From NCBI GenBank assembly GCA_022013695.1, contig JAKLPS010000025.1:1-64000 (forward strand): DNA of 64,000 bases. The letters run 5' to 3'. The stretch's first letter is position 1, and every line of letters starts with the position of its first letter. The notes under the pieces were generated by a model. The model was not told where the DNA came from. It searched no databases and was given only the letters and a program-made list of their open reading frames with translations. This DNA is from Weeksellaceae bacterium. GTDB lineage: Bacteria > Bacteroidota > Bacteroidia > Flavobacteriales > Weeksellaceae. Of the stretch, positions 30,727 through 51,900 are shown in pieces. The position numbers were made by a program, and so were the translations under genes.

Positions 30727-32586
30727 ATGAAAAAAACTGCTTTTTCTTTGTTTTTCATCGTTTTCTCACTACTCATTTCCGCCCAGCAAAACGCTTACTA
30801 TCAGCAATATGCAAAATATAAAATGGATATTGACGTGGATGCTGCCAACTTTACTTATCAAGGAAAACAGACGTTGCAATACCAGAATAATTCGCCGGAC
30901 GAGCTGAAAGTTGCCTATTTTCATTTGTATTGGAATGCTTTCAAATCAGGTTCTATGATGGATCAGCGCGTGCAGTCTCAAGGTGCAAATGCCGACGGGA
31001 GACTGGCTAAAAGAGTAGGGAATACCTTTGTATCCAGATTGGCTTCGATTCCGAAGGAGGAAGAAGGTGCACAGAACATCCGCTGGATCAAGCAAAACGG
31101 AAAGGATTTGAAATTCGAGATTCAGGGAACGGTGATGAAGGTTTATTTGGCAGATGCTATCAAGCCCAATTCTTCCACCACTTTCACAATGGAATGGGAC
31201 GCCACAATCCCAATGCAGATCCGAAGAAGCGGACGCAATAACCGCGAAGGTGTGGATATGACAATGACGCAATGGTACCCGAAAATCGCCGAATATGATT
31301 ATGACGGCTGGGCAGCTTTCGATTATGTTGGAAGAGAATTTCACGCTCCGTTTTCGGATTTTGAAGTGAATATCAAAATCGATAAAGACTACATCATCGG
31401 AGCCGGCGGAAATCTGGAAAACCCTGCAGAAGTGAAGGGTTACGACAGCAACACAAGCATCAAACAAGATATTTCCAACAAAGTAACCTGGAAATGGACG
31501 GCGAAAAACATCCTCGATTTTGCCTGGGCTGCAGATAGAGATTATTCGGTTGAAAATTTCCCAATTTTGGATGGGCCGACGGTTTTCTTGGTTTATCAAA
31601 AATCTGAGAAAACAAAATATTGGTCGGATTTAAAACCCTATCTCACAAAGTATTACCAATTGATGAACGCTACTTTCGGCCGTTACAAATGGCCCAGCTA
31701 TTCCTTCATCCAAGGAGGCGACGGCGGAATGGAGTACGGAATGTGCACCATGGTTCTGGGCCAGGCAACAACTTTGGAAGGTCTTTGCGGACTGATGTTC
31801 CACGAAGGTGCGCATTCTTGGTTTCAACAGATGCTGGCGACCAACGAAAGCGTAAGACCCTGGATGGATGAAGGTTTCACGCAATATGCAGAAGATTTTG
31901 TCTCGTATAGATTGTTTCCGCCCAAAGAATCTCAACCCAATCCATTTGTTGCAGCAATTAAGGCCTACGCTAATTTTGCAAAATCGGGAAAAGAGGAACC
32001 AGCCGTATGGTTGGCAGACCATCATGATAACGGTTCGGCTTATACTTATGCAAGTTACATCAAGGGTGAATTGTTTTTGGTGGAATTGGGTTACATCGTT
32101 GGTGAGGAAAATCTGAACAGAATTATGCTGAAATATTACGACGAATGGGCGATGAATCATCCAACGGAAAGAGATTTTATTCACATGGCGCAAGTGGTGA
32201 CGGGAATGGACTTAAAATGGTTTCAGCATTATTGGATCAACACCACAAAAACCATTGATTACGGCATCAAGAATGTGAAATATGACCCGGAATCTACAAC
32301 CGTCACTTTGGTCAATAAAGGCGGCGTTCCAATGCCAATCGATTTTAGTATTTTGACCAAAGATAAAAAGATCATCAATTATAACATTCCATTGAATCTG
32401 ACAAGAACTTGGAAAACGAAAGATATCTACGGAAACATTCAGACTTTACCGTTTTGGGCTTGGACCCAGCAAGAATATACCTTCACCATTCCATACATCA
32501 AAACTCAGTTAAATGCTATCGGAATTGATTTCAGTCATCGTTTAGCAGATGTAAATCCGGAGGATAATTATTTGGAAGTGAAGTAA
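30727..32586 (+). CDS. M1 family metallopeptidase
   Basis: A 619-residue secreted aminopeptidase-like zinc enzyme. A signal peptide (MKKTAFSLFFIVFSLLISA) precedes a beta domain and the gluzincin catalytic domain. The zinc motif HEGAH is at 359-363 and the third ligand E382 follows at the canonical 18-residue spacing in WMDEGFTQYAED. The GGMEYGM segment before it is the usual substrate-binding G-x-M-E-x motif. It probably acts in the periplasm or outside the cell on peptides for nutrition. It has a full promoter upstream. No terminator is evident before coaX, 108 nt downstream; that gap is AT-rich with two TGTAACATT repeats. Confidence 0.93.
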   Translation: MKKTAFSLFFIVFSLLISAQQNAYYQQYAKYKMDIDVDAANFTYQGKQTLQYQNNSPDELKVAYFHLYWNAFKSGSMMDQRVQSQGANADGRLAKRVGNTFVSRLASIPKEEEGAQNIRWIKQNGKDLKFEIQGTVMKVYLADAIKPNSSTTFTMEWDATIPMQIRRSGRNNREGVDMTMTQWYPKIAEYDYDGWAAFDYVGREFHAPFSDFEVNIKIDKDYIIGAGGNLENPAEVKGYDSNTSIKQDISNKVTWKWTAKNILDFAWAADRDYSVENFPILDGPTVFLVYQKSEKTKYWSDLKPYLTKYYQLMNATFGRYKWPSYSFIQGGDGGMEYGMCTMVLGQATTLEGLCGLMFHEGAHSWFQQMLATNESVRPWMDEGFTQYAEDFVSYRLFPPKESQPNPFVAAIKAYANFAKSGKEEPAVWLADHHDNGSAYTYASYIKGELFLVELGYIVGEENLNRIMLKYYDEWAMNHPTERDFIHMAQVVTGMDLKWFQHYWINTTKTIDYGIKNVKYDPESTTVTLVNKGGVPMPIDFSILTKDKKIINYNIPLNLTRTWKTKDIYGNIQTLPFWAWTQQEYTFTIPYIKTQLNAIGIDFSHRLADVNPEDNYLEVK

Positions 32587-41821: not shown

Positions 41822-43363
41822 ATGAACCTCGATCTCATTACTCAAAAATTCACCAAAATATTTCCGGGAGATTTCTCGGGAAATACGATGCAGAGGCAAA
41901 CACCCGACGTGATGTTTTGCACCGTCAAACCTGCACATTTTAATGATGCCGAATTAATCGATTTTAATGAAAAATTATCGGAAGAAATTGGACTTGGAAA
42001 AATCGAGGATCAAACTGACAAAGATTTTCTTGTCGCGCAGAATCTTCCGGAAAACATAGAAACTTACGCCACCGCTTATGCCGGCCATCAGTTCGGAAAT
42101 TGGGCGGGCCAGTTGGGTGACGGAAGAGTAATTTTCGCAGGAGAAATTATTAACGAAAATCGTCAAACCGAAATCCAATGGAAAGGAGCCGGCGCAACGC
42201 CATATTCCAGAAATGCAGATGGACGAGCCGTTTTGCGTTCCTCGATTCGGGAATATCTGATGAGCGAGGCGATGTATCATCTCGGCATTCCCACAACGCG
42301 CGCTTTGAGTTTGTCCAAAACTGGCGAAGATGTGATTCGTGATATTCAATATTCGGGGAATCCGCAAAAGGAGCAAGGCGCAGTTGTAGTAAGAACTTCG
42401 GAATCTTTCCTCAGATTTGGACATTTCGAATTGCTGTCTGCCAGAAAACAAAATGAACTTTTGAAGCAATTAGCAGATTATAGCATTAAAAATTTCTTTC
42501 CGGAAGTTCGATCAGAAAATCACGCTACAAAATATATCGACTGGTTCCAAGCCATTTGCGACCGCACTTTGAGGATGATTATCCATTGGTATCGCGTTGG
42601 GTTTGTTCACGGTGTGATGAATACCGATAATATGTCAATTCTAGGTTTAACGATCGACTACGGCCCGTTTTCTATGATGGATGGTTACGATCTGGAATTC
42701 ACACCCAACACAACTGATTTGCCGGGAAGACGATACGCTTTTGGGAAGCAAGGTCAGATTGCACATTGGAATCTGGCAACTTTGGCAAATGCTATTTTCC
42801 CTTTAATTAGTGATGCTGAGGTTTTGGAGAAAATTCTGGATGATTTCGGAAAACAATTTTGGGTAAAGCACGACCAAATGCTCGCCCAAAAATTTGGTTT
42901 CGATGAGATTATGAATGAAGATGAGCTGTTCTTCACAGAATGGCAGCAGATGATGCAGGATTTAACTTTAGACTACACTTTATTTTTCCAACAGCTCGAA
43001 AAACCTGTTTCTGAAATTAAAACTGATGATTTCAAAGATGCTTTTTATCGAAATCTTAATGAAAATGAATTGAAAAAATTATCAGATTTCATCGAAAAAT
43101 ATGGGCAAAGAAAACTTAAGAATAAAATCTCGGAATCGGAATCTTTGGAATTAATGTCAAAGACAAATCCGAAATTCGTGCTCAGAAATTATCTTTTGTT
43201 CGAAGCCATTCAGGCGGCGGAAAATGGGAATTATGAGATGTTCTTCAAACTAAAGGCAGCGTTGGAAAATCCTTACACAAACCTCTACCCGGAATTCAAT
43301 AAAAAACGGCCTTCGAAGTACGATAATCAGACGGGAAGCAGTCAGTTGTCTTGTAGTTCTTAG
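41822..43363 (+). CDS. selO: Protein adenylyltransferase SelO (YdiU family)
   Basis: A 513-residue pseudokinase-fold enzyme that transfers AMP to Ser, Thr or Tyr of target proteins, linked to the redox stress response. The nucleotide-binding part has WAGQLGDGRVIFAGE (about 95-109) and WKGAGATPYSRNADGRAVL (about 120-138). The catalytic loop is HGVMNTDNMSI (about 261-271), and the metal-binding DYGPF follows at about 278. The conserved C-terminal Cys of selenocysteine relatives may correspond to the Cys in the last residues LSCSS. It begins only 8 nt after the upstream terminator, so its promoter must lie within or before that terminator, or it depends on readthrough. Confidence 0.94.
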   Translation: MNLDLITQKFTKIFPGDFSGNTMQRQTPDVMFCTVKPAHFNDAELIDFNEKLSEEIGLGKIEDQTDKDFLVAQNLPENIETYATAYAGHQFGNWAGQLGDGRVIFAGEIINENRQTEIQWKGAGATPYSRNADGRAVLRSSIREYLMSEAMYHLGIPTTRALSLSKTGEDVIRDIQYSGNPQKEQGAVVVRTSESFLRFGHFELLSARKQNELLKQLADYSIKNFFPEVRSENHATKYIDWFQAICDRTLRMIIHWYRVGFVHGVMNTDNMSILGLTIDYGPFSMMDGYDLEFTPNTTDLPGRRYAFGKQGQIAHWNLATLANAIFPLISDAEVLEKILDDFGKQFWVKHDQMLAQKFGFDEIMNEDELFFTEWQQMMQDLTLDYTLFFQQLEKPVSEIKTDDFKDAFYRNLNENELKKLSDFIEKYGQRKLKNKISESESLELMSKTNPKFVLRNYLLFEAIQAAENGNYEMFFKLKAALENPYTNLYPEFNKKRPSKYDNQTGSSQLSCSS

Positions 43364-43427
43364 TAGTGTTTTTGAGAGAAATGTAAGTAATAATTTTCTA
43401 TCTTTGTTATCATCAATCTTTAGCACA

Positions 43428-43625
43428 ATGAATTTAGCATCTGAAAAAAGTGAAATCATAAAGTGGGTCAATTCTCTGGAAAGTCCTGCAGTTATTGAAG
43501 AAATTAATAAAATCAGAAACAGAAAGTCTTTTGATTTTGAGAAGGAATGGGAAAGAGGTATTTCCGGTGAGGAACTGAAAAAGCGCACTAAAGAATACTC
43601 AAAAACCTTGCCTTGGAAAAAATAA
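43428..43625 (+). CDS. Putative antitoxin of a RelE-like pair
   Basis: A 65-residue charged, mostly helical protein with no recognised DNA-binding motif. It is called an antitoxin because it directly precedes, and overlaps by 13 nt, a RelE/ParE-like toxin gene, the standard order of type II systems. The C-terminal KRTKEYSKTLPWKK is basic and could be the toxin-wrapping part. The frame is open for 8 codons upstream (ATG at 43404), but the ATG at 43428 gives the more usual length. It lies in the accessory patch with the Fic protein. Confidence 0.65.
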   Translation: MNLASEKSEIIKWVNSLESPAVIEEINKIRNRKSFDFEKEWERGISGEELKKRTKEYSKTLPWKK

Positions 43626-43936
43626 TTATCCAGTATTTACCTGAGGTTGAAGATTATTTGAATGAATTATCATATTTGCTTTTTCACAAGGAATACTTTG
43701 GATTTATAGAAAATGCCTTTGCTTATGTTGAGGAAATTGTTGATTTCATTGAGTACAATCTTCCAATTTTCCCCTTCAAGAAAACGCCTGAAAGTCTATC
43801 CCATCTCGGTTCGAAATATATTTTCTACAAAGCCAATCACACCACGACTTGGTATGTATTCTTTGAAAATGTCGAAAATCGATATCTCGTTACTTTTATT
43901 ACCAACAGCCATTCTGAGATTGTTCAGCATCTTTAG
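43613..43936 (+). CDS. RelE/ParE-like toxin
   Basis: A 107-residue protein with a RelE/ParE-fold pattern: helix VEDYLNELSYLLFHKEYFGF and a second long helix, then the strands KYIFYKANHTTTWYVFFE and RYLVTFITNSH, typical of the fold's beta-sheet end. In this family the toxin cuts ribosome-bound mRNA or inhibits gyrase; the eye cannot tell which, and the usual catalytic Arg/Tyr/His set is only partly visible (His and Tyr near the end). It overlaps the antitoxin-like gene by 13 nt. A hairpin at 43979 follows. Confidence 0.7.
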   Translation: MEKIIIQYLPEVEDYLNELSYLLFHKEYFGFIENAFAYVEEIVDFIEYNLPIFPFKKTPESLSHLGSKYIFYKANHTTTWYVFFENVENRYLVTFITNSHSEIVQHL

Positions 43937-43978
43937 AAAAAAAGAAACTTTATTTTAAAGTGAAATTTTGTCATTTCG

Positions 43979-43999
43979 AAGTATTTTTGAAAAATACTT
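43979..43999. terminator. Hairpin between the convergent toxin and fic genes
   Basis: AAGTATTTTT and AAAAATACTT form a 10-bp perfect stem around a single base loop centre. It lacks a long T run but sits between convergent genes, so it may stop transcription from both sides. Confidence 0.5.
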
Positions 44000-44029
44000 G
44001 ATTTTGAAATTGCTGAACAATACTTCAAT

Positions 44030-45130
44030 TTAAAGATTCAGCTGATACCGCACATTTCTTCCTTCACCTTGTTGCAACAAAATTTCCTTAACCGTCAGGT
44101 CCTGCAGATCTCGAGTGGCTGTGGCGCGAGAAACTTTGGTGATAGACACATATTTTTTAGCGGTCAGTCCGCCCTCAAAACCGCGAGTTCCAAATTCAAA
44201 CATTTTCATAAGGGCTTTGGTTTGGCGCTCATTCATTTGAGGCTTGTGCCGATCCAAAAATTTACTTTTATTAAGTGTCAGCAAAATAGTCTGTTTGGCC
44301 TGTTTCTGGGCTTCCAAAACTACAGATGAAAAGTAGAAGATCCAGTCTGTAATTTCTAAGGTTCTTTGGGCGGATTTCAAAGCGTTGTAATATTGCCTCT
44401 TATCTTTTTCAATAGTGCCGGAAAGGCTTATCAAAAACGGCATTCCAAAAGATTCCGAAAGGCATTTTTGGGAAATCGCCCTGCCAATTCGTCCATTTCC
44501 GTCTTCGAAGGGATGGATGCTTTCGAAATATAAATGAGAGAGGGCTGTTTTGACAAGAATATTTTTGACATCCGCCGTAGAAACTTTAAAATTATTGTAC
44601 CACTGGACGAAATTTTCCATTTCTTGGGGTATCAGTTCTGAAGGCGGCGCTTCGAAATGAACCACTTCTCTTCCCAACGCTCCGGAAACAATTTGCATAG
44701 GCTCTTTACCTGTTCTATATTCTCCAGCCTTTATGTATGGAACATTCTGCATTAATAGATGATGCCAATTTTTCAGAAGCATTTCAGAAAATTCATCTTT
44801 GTAGGATTGCTGTACCGCAATCATCAGAGCAGCAATGCCTTGGGATTTTTTGTCTCGGATTTTGGGCAGCTCATCAGTCATTCCCAATTGCTTTTTTATC
44901 GAAGACATCACATCTTGTCTGCTGAAAAATTCTCCTTCTATTTCCGAGGTTTTAACGGCTTCAGAAATCATAAATTCTAACATCGCTTCTTGCCGCACGG
45001 GTTCTGGAAAGGAATCCGCCAAACCTTTCATTTCACCTGTTTCCAGCGAAAAATTTATGATTAATGAGTCGAGCACAGCGTCGTCATAAGTGAAATTTGC
45101 CCAATTTGGTAACTGCCAATTATAATGCAT
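44030..45130 (-). CDS. Fic family protein with N-terminal inhibitory helix and C-terminal winged helix
   Basis: A 366-residue Fic protein. Fic enzymes usually transfer AMP from ATP to a hydroxyl of a target protein. The N-terminal region fits DUF4172/Fic_N. The inhibitory-helix motif [ST]xxxE[GN] is at T61-G66 (TSEIEG), placing it in class II, which blocks its own active site. The Fic core HPFEDGNGRIGR at 206-217 is intact, so it should be active once released. The C-terminal 80 residues (about 285-366) look like a winged helix (ATATRDLQDL as recognition helix). Upstream are two copies of a 9-11-9 palindrome around a promoter box, suggesting autoregulation. Its target is unknown. Confidence 0.92.
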   Translation of the reverse strand: MHYNWQLPNWANFTYDDAVLDSLIINFSLETGEMKGLADSFPEPVRQEAMLEFMISEAVKTSEIEGEFFSRQDVMSSIKKQLGMTDELPKIRDKKSQGIAALMIAVQQSYKDEFSEMLLKNWHHLLMQNVPYIKAGEYRTGKEPMQIVSGALGREVVHFEAPPSELIPQEMENFVQWYNNFKVSTADVKNILVKTALSHLYFESIHPFEDGNGRIGRAISQKCLSESFGMPFLISLSGTIEKDKRQYYNALKSAQRTLEITDWIFYFSSVVLEAQKQAKQTILLTLNKSKFLDRHKPQMNERQTKALMKMFEFGTRGFEGGLTAKKYVSITKVSRATATRDLQDLTVKEILLQQGEGRNVRYQLNL

Positions 45131-45158
45131 GAGGCGATTAAATTAAATTATTGCCTCA
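45130..45158 (-). promoter_or_regulatory. Operator copy 1 at the fic start codon
   Basis: TGAGGCGAT (45130-45138), 11 nt, ATTGCCTCA (45150-45158). The right half is exact and the left half has one change from perfect symmetry. It overlaps the first base of the start codon and the end of the -7 promoter box. Confidence 0.7.
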
Positions 45159-45164
45159 AATATA
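45157..45164 (-). promoter_or_regulatory. TAnnTTTG promoter box for fic
   Basis: TATATTTG on the minus strand, 26 nt before the start codon and between the two operator copies. A TTG at 45188-45190 is a possible -33 element, with a 23-nt spacer. Confidence 0.55.
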
Positions 45165-45173
45165 ATAGTTTTT

Positions 45174-45202
45174 TGAGGCAATTAGCACAATTAATTGCCT
45201 CA
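45174..45202 (-). promoter_or_regulatory. Operator copy 2 upstream of fic
   Basis: TGAGGCAAT (45174-45182), 11 nt, ATTGCCTCA (45194-45202): a perfect 9-bp inverted repeat with the same spacing as copy 1. The two centres are 44 bp apart, about four helical turns. Confidence 0.75.
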
Positions 45203-45279
45203 TTTCTTTTTTTTCGGTTTTACTTTCGATGTAAATGAGGTACAGCGACGAATTTATCTTAAGTTTTAAGTTTAAGCTT

Positions 45280-45287
45280 TATTTTTG
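45280..45287 (+). promoter_or_regulatory. TAnnTTTG box overlapping the start of a membrane protein gene
   Basis: TATTTTTG followed by C. Transcription from it would begin near 45293, so the translated start must be downstream (TTG at 45297 or 45303). Confidence 0.5.
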
Positions 45288-46580
45288 CAGAAATATTTGA
45301 TTTTGAAACTGCCTAACAAAATAATTTCTTTCCTGAAAATCGTTTTCCCTTCTACAAAGATCGAAGCTTTTGTTTTTCTCTTTTTTGTGATCGGATATGG
45401 CGCCAATGCGTGCTTTATTGCGGAGCATTTCAGAATTATTTATGACAATAGAATCCCGTGGGATGCCTATTTCAGTTTTGACAACCGCGCGATTATCCAG
45501 ACTGGCGGCGGTTTTGAGCGGCATCCGCTTTCCAATTATTTTTTTGATCAAATTCGCGCGTTTGCCCTTTGGATTTCCGGAAATCGTTACGATTCGGTAT
45601 TTCGTTTGGTTTTGGCGTTATTGTCAACTTTAGTGATAAGTTTAGCCAACGTTCAGATTTTCAAATATCTCAATAATATTATCCGAATTCCATTGAAAAT
45701 CAGTCTATTGATTCTATTTTTCTATGGCTTGTTTGTGACGAATATTCTCTTGTCCTTCACGCCGGAAACCTATACTTATACTTTATTTTTTCTGTCGATA
45801 TTCAATTATTATGCGGCAAAGAAAATCAATGAAGAGAAAACGATGTCGTTTGGAGCTGCGATTATCGGTTCTGTTTTTATCGGTGGACTTACGATTACGA
45901 ATATTGTAAAAGTTTACATTCCGTTTCTCTTTGAGAAAAAAATCTTCTGGAACTGGCGGAAAATCGGACGTGCAGTTTCGAAAATCGCAGCTTCTATCGC
46001 TGTTTTCGTGTTTTTGTTTTTGTTGAGATTGGATTTTAATTTTCAAAATTTCCTGAACAAAACGGAAGAGCAGTATGAGAAATTTTCTACGCCAAAGGTG
46101 ACGCCGCTTTGGGATATGATTGCGTCTTGGTTTCTTGGCGGCCCTATTCTGTTTCCGGGTTTTGTCATCAGAGATTATCACAGCAGAGACAAAAGTTTTT
46201 ACTACAAAGCCTTGTTTATGGATGTTTACTCGTCCGTCGTGTCTTATATTTTTGTCGGAATTATTTTGTTGATGATTATCTGGAGCATTTTCAAAAATTT
46301 TAGAAACCGGCTGGTTTGGATCCTAGTCATTTCTTTTTCGGCAGATATACTCATTCATTGCGTTTTGAAATTCGGTCTTCATACCTCTTATATTTACGGC
46401 GGCCATTTCGTTTTCGTTTATCCGTTGTTGTTGGGCTGGCTGTTTTTCAGTTTTAAAGAGAAGACTTTGCCCTTGACATTTTTGTACGGAACATTGCTGA
46501 TCCTCACCGTTTATCTTGGTTTTAATAATTTGTACCGCTTGACAGAGTTTTATCAATTCTTAGAAACTTACTACCAATAA
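45285..46580 (+). CDS. Multi-spanning membrane protein of unknown function (DUF6080-like)
   Basis: A protein of about 425-431 residues with roughly ten hydrophobic segments, for example AFVFLFFVIGYGANACFI, and paired segments near 85-135, 190-250 and 310-420. It resembles polytopic GT-C-type or DUF6080 proteins; the family name is from memory and tentative. The first loop contains GGGFERHPLSNYFFDQIRAFA. There is no ATG anywhere near the N-terminus, so it must start with TTG (45285, 45297 or 45303). The first is the 5' limit; because it overlaps the promoter box, 45303 is my preferred start. Directly after the stop codon comes a MITE-like element. Confidence 0.7.
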   Translation: MQKYLILKLPNKIISFLKIVFPSTKIEAFVFLFFVIGYGANACFIAEHFRIIYDNRIPWDAYFSFDNRAIIQTGGGFERHPLSNYFFDQIRAFALWISGNRYDSVFRLVLALLSTLVISLANVQIFKYLNNIIRIPLKISLLILFFYGLFVTNILLSFTPETYTYTLFFLSIFNYYAAKKINEEKTMSFGAAIIGSVFIGGLTITNIVKVYIPFLFEKKIFWNWRKIGRAVSKIAASIAVFVFLFLLRLDFNFQNFLNKTEEQYEKFSTPKVTPLWDMIASWFLGGPILFPGFVIRDYHSRDKSFYYKALFMDVYSSVVSYIFVGIILLMIIWSIFKNFRNRLVWILVISFSADILIHCVLKFGLHTSYIYGGHFVFVYPLLLGWLFFSFKEKTLPLTFLYGTLLILTVYLGFNNLYRLTEFYQFLETYYQ

Positions 46581-48949: not shown

Positions 48950-51900
48950 ATGGCTTCAAAAAAAATACAATTCAGAAGTATTCACGAACTAAAAGACCCA
49001 AGCCTGAACGGCAAGTTGGCGCTTAAAGAGTTTCAAAACGAAATTCCGGTAGATGAATTCTTGGAAGATGCCGGCAACTCGGGGACTTCTCGAAGAGATT
49101 TCCTGAAATTATTGGGTTTCTCCACGGCTGCTGTTACTTTAGCTGCCTGCGAAGCGCCGGTCATCAAGACGATTCCGTATGTTGTAAAACCGCACGACAT
49201 CATTCCGGGCATTCCCAATTATTACGCATCAACATATTTCGATGGATTCGATTTTGCCAGCGTTTTGGTAAAAACAAGAGAAGGGCGGCCTATCAAAATA
49301 GAACCAAATCCTGCGGCAGGTTCTTTGGGAAAAACCAACGCGAGAGCTCAGGCCAGCGTGCTTTCTCTTTATGATAATGATAAAGTGAAGTTGCCAAGCT
49401 TGAACGGAGATGAGCAAACTGATTTTAGTAAAATTGACGATTTTGTTTTAAAAGGTTTAGCTGAATCTCAGGCTGCTGGTAAAAAGATTGTGGTATTATC
49501 TCACTCTTTTCCCAGCCCAACTTTCAAAAAGCTATTTGGAGATTTCAAAACTAAATATCCTTCGGCCGAACTTATTACCTACGACGCCTTTCCTTACGCT
49601 GCAGCATTAGACGCGGCTCAGGAAGTTTTCGGACAAAGAGCCTTGCCGGTTTACGACCTTAGCACTTCTCAATTGGTCGTTTCTTTCAACGCCGATTTCT
49701 TAGGAGATTACAATGCGTCGAGCTTAGAAGTTTCGTATGCCGCGGCAAGAAAGCCAGGTCCCGAGATGTTGAGACACATCCAAGTAGAGTCCAACTTGAG
49801 TTTGACCGGCGCAAATGCCGATTCCAGATACCGATTGAAGCCAAGCGCAGTTTTCAAAACCTTAGTAGAGGTTTATAATGGACTGAACGGTGGAACTTCT
49901 GATAAAACAGCTTCTGAAATTGTAAAAGAACTTCAGGCAAAAGGCGAAAAAGCGGTTGTTTTGGCTGATGGTTCAAAAGCGGCTTACGTTTTAGCCCATT
50001 TAATTAATCAAAAATTAGGATCTAAAGCTTTCACGGGCAAAGCCAATTTCCGCAAAGAATACGACAATGCAAGATTCAACGAATTCTTATCGTGGTTGAA
50101 TAGCGGGCAAGTTGGCGTTCTGATTTCTAACAATGTCAACCCTATTTATTCTCACGCCAAAGGAGAATCTCTAAAAGCAGCGTTGTCCAAAGTGCCTTAC
50201 TCTGTAGCAATTACAGATAAGAAAAACGAAATGTACAAAGCTTCTAAAGCGGTCATTCCTTATGCACATTGGTTAGAATCTTGGGGCGATATCGCTCCGC
50301 AAACTGGTGCTTATTCATTGATGCAACCAACGATCCAAAAAATATATACGTCGCGACAGGTTGAAGAATCTCTTTTGGTTTGGATCAATGGGAAAAACAG
50401 TCCGGCTAATAACTACTATGAATATCTTAAAGCAAATGCTTTAACGCTTAATGAAGGGAAAACTTTCAACAAGACTTTATATAATGGTTTCACGACTGGT
50501 GGCCTTTCTGCAGGATTGGCTTACACAGGTGGAAATGCGGCGCAAGCTATCGCAGAATTAAGCGCTTTCAAACCTACTCCATTAGAATTACAACTTTATA
50601 CCAAGCCGGCAATTGGCGACGGAACACAATCTAACAACCCTTGGTTGATGGAGCTTCCGGATCCTATTTCCAGATTGTCTTGGGACAACTATCTTACGAT
50701 TTCTCCAAAAGATGCTGAGGCAATGGGTCTCGAAAATAGCCTTAATGCTAGAATGCAACTCGACGGAGACTTGGTTAGCTTGACGGTAAACGGAGTTACC
50801 TTAAAAGATGTTCCTGTTTTTATACAACCGGGACAGGCAGAAGGATCTTTGGGTCTTGCTTTAGGTTATGGGAAGAAAAATTCCGGAAAAGTAGCGGAAA
50901 CAGGTATCAATGCCTATCCTCTATTCGATGGGTACAACACAGTTCTTAGCAATGTAAAAATTGAAAAAACCGGAGAAGATTATGAATTTGCAGGAATGCA
51001 ACTTCAAAATACCGTGATGGGGCGTTATGAAATCGCTAAAGAAGTTTCTTTGGAAGATTTCATCAACAAACCTACCGATGAGTGGAACGCGCCACTGGCT
51101 ATGCACACCATCGGAGGCGAGCTTCCATTAGGGAAAGTAGATCTTTGGGATGCTTTTGATGATACAGACGGTCCTCACTTCAATTTGTCAGTAGATCTTA
51201 ACTCTTGCACAGGTTGCGGCGCTTGCGTAGTGGCTTGTCAGGCCGAAAATAACGTGGCAGTAGTTGGTAAAGATGAAATCAGAATGTCCAGAGATATGTA
51301 TTGGTTGAGAATTGACCGGTATTATTCTGCCATAGAAAAGATCGAAACCAAGGAGCAACTCGACAGAGGTCTTAATGCCGCGCAGCTTTATGGTGGTCCT
51401 TTTACAGAAGGTGTTTTGAATCATCCGGCGGATAATCCGGATGTCATCTTCCAGCCAGTGATGTGCCAGCATTGTAATCACGCGCCTTGCGAAACAGTTT
51501 GTCCAGTGGCAGCAACCTCGCACGGGAAACAAGGCCAAAATCAAATGGCGTACAACAGATGTATCGGTACAAGATACTGTGCGAACAACTGTCCTTATAA
51601 AGTTCGACGATTCAATTGGTTCAATTATGCCTTGAATGACAAGTTCGATTTCCATATGAATAATGACTTGGGAAGAATGGTTCTCAACCCAGATGTGGTT
51701 ACCCGAACAAGAGGGGTGATGGAAAAATGTTCTATGTGCATCCAGCTGACTCAGAACACTATTCTGGAAGCGAAGAAGGAGGGCAGAAGAGTGGTTGACG
51801 GAGAGTTCCAGACAGCGTGTTCCAAAGCTTGTTCTACGGGTTCGTTGAAATTTGGAGATATGAATGATGTGGCTTCAGAAGTTCGCAGCTTGTTCAACAG

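Follow-up and report, generated by a model that had tools for sequence, protein, structure and literature searches.

A DUF4172-Fic-winged-helix gene with two putative operators at its own promoter and start codon

The fic gene, its protein and its surroundings

The DNA analysed is a stretch of 64 kb, referred to as the window throughout. On its minus strand it carries a fic gene preceded by two closely similar 9-11-9 palindromes. The features on which the analysis rests are as follows.

44030..45130, minus strand: fic gene, encoding a 366-aa DUF4172-Fic-winged-helix protein (open reading frame, Pfam matches, AlphaFold model)
44879..45124, minus strand: DUF4172 domain (Pfam match)
44933..44950, minus strand: inhibitory helix TSEIEG, residues 61-66, class II type (sequence; I64 and E65 invariant)
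44480..44515, minus strand: Fic catalytic motif HPFEDGNGRIGR, residues 206-217 (sequence)
44090..44128, minus strand: recognition helix, residues 335-347, opening with R335 and A336 (DSSP of the model; co-variation with operator letters)
44051..44068, minus strand: wing turn, residues 355-360, between model strands 351-354 and 361-364; tracks half-site positions 7-9
45130..45158, minus strand: putative operator site 1 (proximal), 9-11-9 palindrome TGAGGCGAT-N11-ATTGCCTCA, exact coordinates
45157..45164, minus strand: TATATTTG, candidate -7 box of the Bacteroidota type (sequence), named from TAnnTTTG, the -7 box consensus of Bacteroidota
45174..45202, minus strand: putative operator site 2 (distal), 9-11-9 palindrome TGAGGCAAT-N11-ATTGCCTCA, exact coordinates
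41822-43363, plus strand: SelO gene, neighbour of fic (Pfam SelO, 405.9 bits, 'protein adenylyltransferase')
43404-43625 and 43613-43936, plus strand: two small overlapping ORFs downstream of fic, in a toxin-antitoxin-like arrangement

The Fic protein lies well over the curated Pfam cut-offs for DUF4172 (81.7 bits versus 25) and the Fic domain (64.7 bits versus 24), and under those for DIP2311-like_C (20.6 versus 27) and Fic_N (15.1 versus 26.7). Its HPFx[DE]GNGRxxR motif is intact and the N-terminal inhibitory (S/T)xxxE(G/N) helix is present, the latter motif being used as given in passages of PMC9755527 and its class II designation following passages of PMC10628234. In an AlphaFold model built from 56 sequences (mean pLDDT 93.3), the C-terminus folds as a winged helix comprising helices 324-331 and 335-347 and strands 351-354 and 361-364; the closest solved structure to this model is 8CIL (Foldseek TM 0.88). 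Sequence and model thus bear out an earlier note on this DNA, which had described an intact Fic core, a TSEIEG helix and a C-terminal winged helix, and on its DUF4172 domain, Fic motif with inhibitory helix, and winged helix with 8CIL fold the protein groups with the CbFic2-like (DUF4172-Fic-wHTH) proteins. A whole-genome search found a single DUF4172 match, and a relative with 99% identity occurs in Chryseobacterium sp. SC28.

The two palindromes are TGAGGCRAT-N11-ATTGCCTCA sites of 9-11-9 geometry with centres 44 bp apart, exactly as the earlier note had described them. It had further set both on the same helix face; a fixed phase is indeed kept, but exact alignment is not, as 44 bp corresponds to 4.2 turns at 10.5 bp. 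Similarly, the TATATTTG box, said to sit between the sites, does so only in part, since it runs into site 1 and shares its first two bases; site 2 sits 10 bp further upstream of the box. Site 1 does touch the start codon, base 45130 being common to the site and to codon 45130-45128; read along the coding strand, the site finishes with the A of ATG. No -33 box was identified at the usual distance in the window. Scanning the 64-kb window with up to three mismatches returned seven strand-matches, versus 0.10 expected, at four places, and the two places other than sites 1 and 2 are weak (50716-50744 with two mismatches, 31265-31293 with three). The entire 2.6 Mb genome yielded the identical four places at up to three mismatches, and zero matches to a reversed control pattern. 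Sites 1 and 2 are therefore the sole good copies in the genome.

The fic gene occupies a variable gap (43937-45279) between the SelO gene and a DUF6080 gene. On either side of it, at 43984-44020 and 45283-45319, stand 37-nt direct repeats (81%) of the 5' end of DUF6080. Among genus relatives, this gap is about 40 bp in L252, L254, and L260, contains two small ORFs and no fic in L253, L258, L265, and L267, and contains fic without the two small ORFs in L256; L268 also has the two small ORFs without fic, SelO being absent from the stretch covered. The window's own two small ORFs (43404-43625, 43613-43936) have no Pfam match over cut-off. The closeness of two AMPylases, SelO and Fic, is probably chance, since fic-less relatives likewise have SelO close to DUF6080. 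We considered and rejected the divergent DUF6080 gene as the one served by the operators: DUF6080 was found in 22 of 23 genus genomes and fic beside it in only 3 of these 22 (1500 bp upstream), so the operators belong to fic.

Conservation, placement and spacing of the paired sites

Orthologues were gathered at several taxonomic depths. A family sample returned any Fic-like match (E 0.001) in 149 of 296 genomes, most of these not being DUF4172 orthologues. Further samples at E 1e-40 gave matches in 35/395 genomes of the order, 8/23 of the genus, and 82/345 of the class, a phylum sample at E 1e-30 in 35/345, and a scan of named genomes added its best 80 loci; each sample contributed loci up to a fixed maximum. 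This left 184 loci with a fic ORF, two of which lacked a start codon and were dropped (L117, L156); the remaining 182 were reduced to 177 distinct proteins by removing duplicates and upstreams shorter than 130 bp.

The earlier note had named arms not conserved upstream of orthologous DUF4172-Fic genes as a possible refutation. They are conserved: a 9-11-9 palindrome with at least 8/9 complementary arm positions was found within 130 bp upstream in 147 of the 177 orthologues, versus about 5.4 in shuffles, and in 4 of 174 when a control stretch 170-300 bp upstream was searched. When spacers of 0-30 were scanned across orthologues the maximum fell at 11, with neighbouring odd spacers also high because they share the centre. 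Our first site finder caught an inner pseudo-palindrome in some loci, the window's included, and was replaced by one that scores two sites jointly through the likeness of their four half-sites (threshold 21, centre distances 30-62 bp). With this model a matching pair (score >=21) was present in 133/177 orthologues against 0.2 expected from shuffles; 44/177 training and 26/59 held-out genes missed the threshold. Across 49 loci of the window's geometry, information per position was 1.33 bits in the arms, 0.53 in the spacers, and 0.13 in the outer flanks. The set includes 74 loci from named genomes, drawn from the best 80, and 58 of them carried such an operator. The genomes with operators of this kind belong to Bacteroidota, Nitrospirota, Verrucomicrobiota, Acidobacteriota, Planctomycetota, a Thermodesulfobacteriales MAG, and Alpha-, Beta-, and Gammaproteobacteria.

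Placement on the promoter recurs among these loci. A TAnnTTTG box was present in 65 of the 133 operator-bearing loci and, in 52 of these 65, began 6 bp upstream of site 1, so that the final TG of the box is shared with the operator. In 80/133 orthologues with a paired operator the site nearer the gene begins at -28 relative to the ATG, and hence the A of ATG is its last base; the proximal site of TGC-type members starts at -39 to -47 in 22/31.

Centre distances were collected from 166 paired operators, training and held-out genes combined, and fell at 33-34 bp (40 pairs), 41 bp (2), 44-45 bp (100), and 52-55 bp (24). The three main classes, which include 164/166 pairs, thus step by approximately one helical turn, and phase concentration peaks, broadly, at 10.5 bp (0.909 versus 0.894 at 10 and 11). 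TGA-type members have spacings of 44-45 bp and TGC-type members 33-34 or 52-55 bp, the phase therefore being preserved with one turn less or more. A preserved phase would be the requirement expected for contact between two bound dimers, and the stepped spacings are accordingly in line with the cooperative binding that the earlier note had proposed and that we likewise infer, here as cooperation of two dimers. Within one site the arm centres are 20 bp apart, arithmetically about 68 angstrom, which fits the 70.2 angstrom given between the DNA-reading helices of the CccR dimer in passages of PMC9755527, even though the spacer in the footprint of CccR itself is longer.

As a control we scanned upstream of 20 distant Fic genes, none of which matched DUF4172 at E 0.001; for L286, L288, and L290, which have no ATG in the first 60 codons, the open-frame start was used. 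A 9-11-9 site was found in 5/20 and the pair threshold was passed by 6/20, placing the control far below the DUF4172 set and above shuffles; it is not a clean negative. Inverted repeats of other geometry were seen upstream of the non-DUF4172 Fic genes L285, L277-L279, L280, L283, L284, and L291, the arms of the L285 repeat being about 25 bp as judged by eye. Self-operators may be common among Fic-HTH proteins as a wider habit. The genome of the window encodes a second Fic protein (G000:C9:27714-28565, L272, a 379-aa open frame) with a Fic domain, a MarR-like HTH, and no DUF4172, upstream of which no 9-11-9 site was found.

Thirteen listed genomes carried two family members, and in five of these both genes had operators at threshold. 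The paralogues' operators differed in G849 (TGCAAC, TGCGGT), G681 (TGCGGT, TGCGGA), G1115 (TGCAAC, TGCGGT), and G560 (TGAGGC versus a TGCGG-type site in shifted register), and were identical in G132; in this small sample the remaining eight genomes had at least one gene without an operator at threshold.

Residue 335 and the letters of the operator

Half-sites varied by clade and included TGAGGC, TGAGCC, TGAGTTATA, TGAGCTATA, TGAGCGATA, TGCGGAGAA, TGCGGTGAT, TGCAACGAA, and others. Following the earlier note's suggestion that the arms be compared with the recognition helix, we found that arm letters co-vary with residue 335, the residue that opens this helix in the AlphaFold model. For the residue tests L023, L024, and L072, in which the wHTH is wholly or partly absent, were left out, reducing 133 proteins to 130. 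Among these, residues 335/336 KA went with core AGCC in 46/46, QD with CGGA in 9/9, PD with CGGA in 4/4, TD with CGGT in 8/9, KD with C[AG]AC in 4/4, PA with A[GT]CG in 6/6, and AS with AGCT in 7/8. Proteins with RA, that of the window included, were mixed (30 genes; AGGC, AGTT, AGGT, AGCT, ATGC, and ATTT), and residue 335 is therefore not the whole code. Wings of the form xGR were associated with [GA]A[AT] at half-site positions 7-9, as were one KAR and one SGP, and other wings (RR, LK, LR, RK, and HR) with ATA, once ATT.

Because relatives share both residues and operator letters, we drew a tree from residues 1-285 alone and compared 81 path-disjoint pairs on it. These covered 162 proteins (L195, with its shifted register, was left out), and 23 pairs had different core letters. 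R335 was changed in 16/23 different-core pairs versus 4/58 same-core pairs (p 2.3e-8), ranking first among the 366 residues. It also ranked first for co-change along branches (12/30 core changes, p 2e-6), followed by K60 and then A336. Since different-core pairs were more distant (median N-terminal identity 0.64 versus 0.83 for same-core pairs), the paired test was redone within identity strata; R335 was still first (z 4.41), a value reached by any residue in 0 of 2000 permutations. A position-by-position tree test was weaker, with A336 first for position 3, R335 third for position 5, and R335 outside the eight residues listed for position 6, at which mutual information, a measure that ignores relatedness, ranked R335 first.

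A residue-to-base rule was written before further orthologues were examined and then applied to 60 held-out regions, a set that omits, among others, G045, G682, G793, G825, G831, G630, G1050, and G1127. One region lacked a start (L244), leaving 59 usable, 33 of which had a paired operator; three of the 33 (L218, L239, and L249) carried residue pairs outside the rule, and 30 were scored. The rule was correct for 27 of these 30 genes. As the held-out genes were nearly all of TGC type, the test bears mainly on how residue 335 selects base 6, T or S going with T, Q, P, or A with A, and K with C. The three misses were L195, where the register is shifted (an inner pairing, by judgement), L242, whose disputed position shows four different letters, and L248, a true miss.

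Predicted autorepression, rival readings and known systems

We hold it to be highly probable that both palindromes are operators of the Fic protein itself, which would shut off its own promoter. Autorepression through the protein's own winged helix, the simplest reading put forward in the earlier note, is very likely because the operators are conserved, phased, co-varying with residue 335, and predictable on held-out genes, and the overlap with promoter box and start codon points the same way. We infer actual binding, cooperativity, and repression by the Fic protein from these sequence patterns. With a Fic dimer bound, each 9-bp arm would receive one of its C-terminal winged helices, the arm centres being 20 bp apart, and two such dimers would sit at a fixed helical phase, probably touching. 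Jointly the two dimers would mask the -7 box together with the DNA immediately upstream of it, the expected transcription start, and the start codon. Filled sites would block the promoter and start region, with release once the Fic protein becomes scarce.

The palindromes by themselves cannot name their binding protein, and another regulator might bind them with Fic merely its target. We consider this very improbable, as the arm letters follow a residue in Fic's own recognition helix, the sites stay with fic across phyla and are kept where fic is located elsewhere in a same-genus genome (G078; operator of L009), and the genome has no other good site. Slightly more room is left for a Fic protein that binds as an activator, or that mainly sets its own enzyme state with little repression, which we regard as quite improbable: passages of PMC10628234 describe DNA binding that alters the enzyme activity and dimerisation of CbFic2, but the overlap of site 1 with the -7 box and start codon fits blocking, and CccR represses according to passages of PMC9755527.

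Site 1 might instead form an RNA hairpin at the start codon that controls translation; in many orthologues its end would fall at the ATG, given the site start at -28 in 80/133. Such a hairpin is nonetheless hard to credit, since site 2, with the same arms, is located beyond the promoter box on its upstream side, the RNA fold hardly beats shuffles (z -0.89; 39/200 shuffles at least as good), TGC-type proximal sites begin at -39 to -47 in 22/31, and the letters track a DNA-reading helix. We give next to no weight to chance palindromes or to site 2 as a terminator for the other strand; TTTCTTTTTT follows site 2 on the plus strand and the site was listed as terminator-like, yet the pair is conserved in 133/177 orthologues with its arms changing together.

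Beyond autorepression by the Fic protein, we suggest, as an idea that is itself unlikely to hold, that a DUF4172-Fic gene might form a one-gene circuit whose operator also belongs to the enzyme switch, a "DNA antitoxin". Two dimers on their own operators would stay in the dimeric, deAMPylating state that is reported for CbFic2 on DNA, loss of or attack on host DNA would free AMPylating monomers and derepress the gene, and the code of residues 335/336 and the wing would separate the operators of paralogues. A concrete operator and a residue-to-base code make the role of DNA binding in Fic-wHTH enzymes directly testable; the code partly predicts the operator from protein sequence, and the family supplies naturally diverged repressor-operator pairs.

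Self-repression by a Fic enzyme has a precedent in CccR. Among the papers listed from the open-licence PMC literature none gave an operator of a DUF4172 Fic protein, and new relative to them are the family-wide double operator, the fixed position that it takes over promoter and start codon in several phyla, its phasing, and a recognition code that can be read in part. Type II toxin-antitoxin autoregulation, e.g., Phd-Doc, also involves a Fic-fold enzyme, whose level a dimeric repressor adjusts by acting on palindromes; in the window a single polypeptide unites the enzyme, the inhibitory helix, and the putative repressor. The SoFic/Sofic anti-phage proteins, as described in passages of PMC12249575, combine a Fic domain with a C-terminal domain and form a dimer. 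The PADLOC SoFic model matches the window's protein at 1e-51, a Fic domain with a C-terminal domain likewise, but the NCBIfam SoFic equivalog is far under cut-off (60 versus 550 bits).

CbFic2 of Coxiella burnetii (PDB 8CIL) has the same domain order as the window's protein (phmmer 207.5 bits, Foldseek TM 0.88). According to passages of PMC10628234 its HTH binds DNA, random DNA having been used, and a shift to a deAMPylating dimer is proposed; these passages give neither an operator nor autorepression, unlike the candidate operators of the window. For CccR of Yersinia pseudotuberculosis, the passages of PMC9755527 describe autorepression by a dimer bound to palindromes close to the -35/-10 elements of the cccR promoter, with a 3.3-fold rise in the deletion and a need for the dimer. 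CccR is a secreted effector, and its operator is one inverted repeat with a 26-bp spacer, in contrast to two 9-11-9 sites 44 bp apart in the window. By that published description, CccR resembles the window's protein in being a class II Fic protein with a C-terminal HTH and palindromes at its own promoter, and a palindromic operator at its own promoter, with predicted binding and repression, is likewise found for the fic gene described here.
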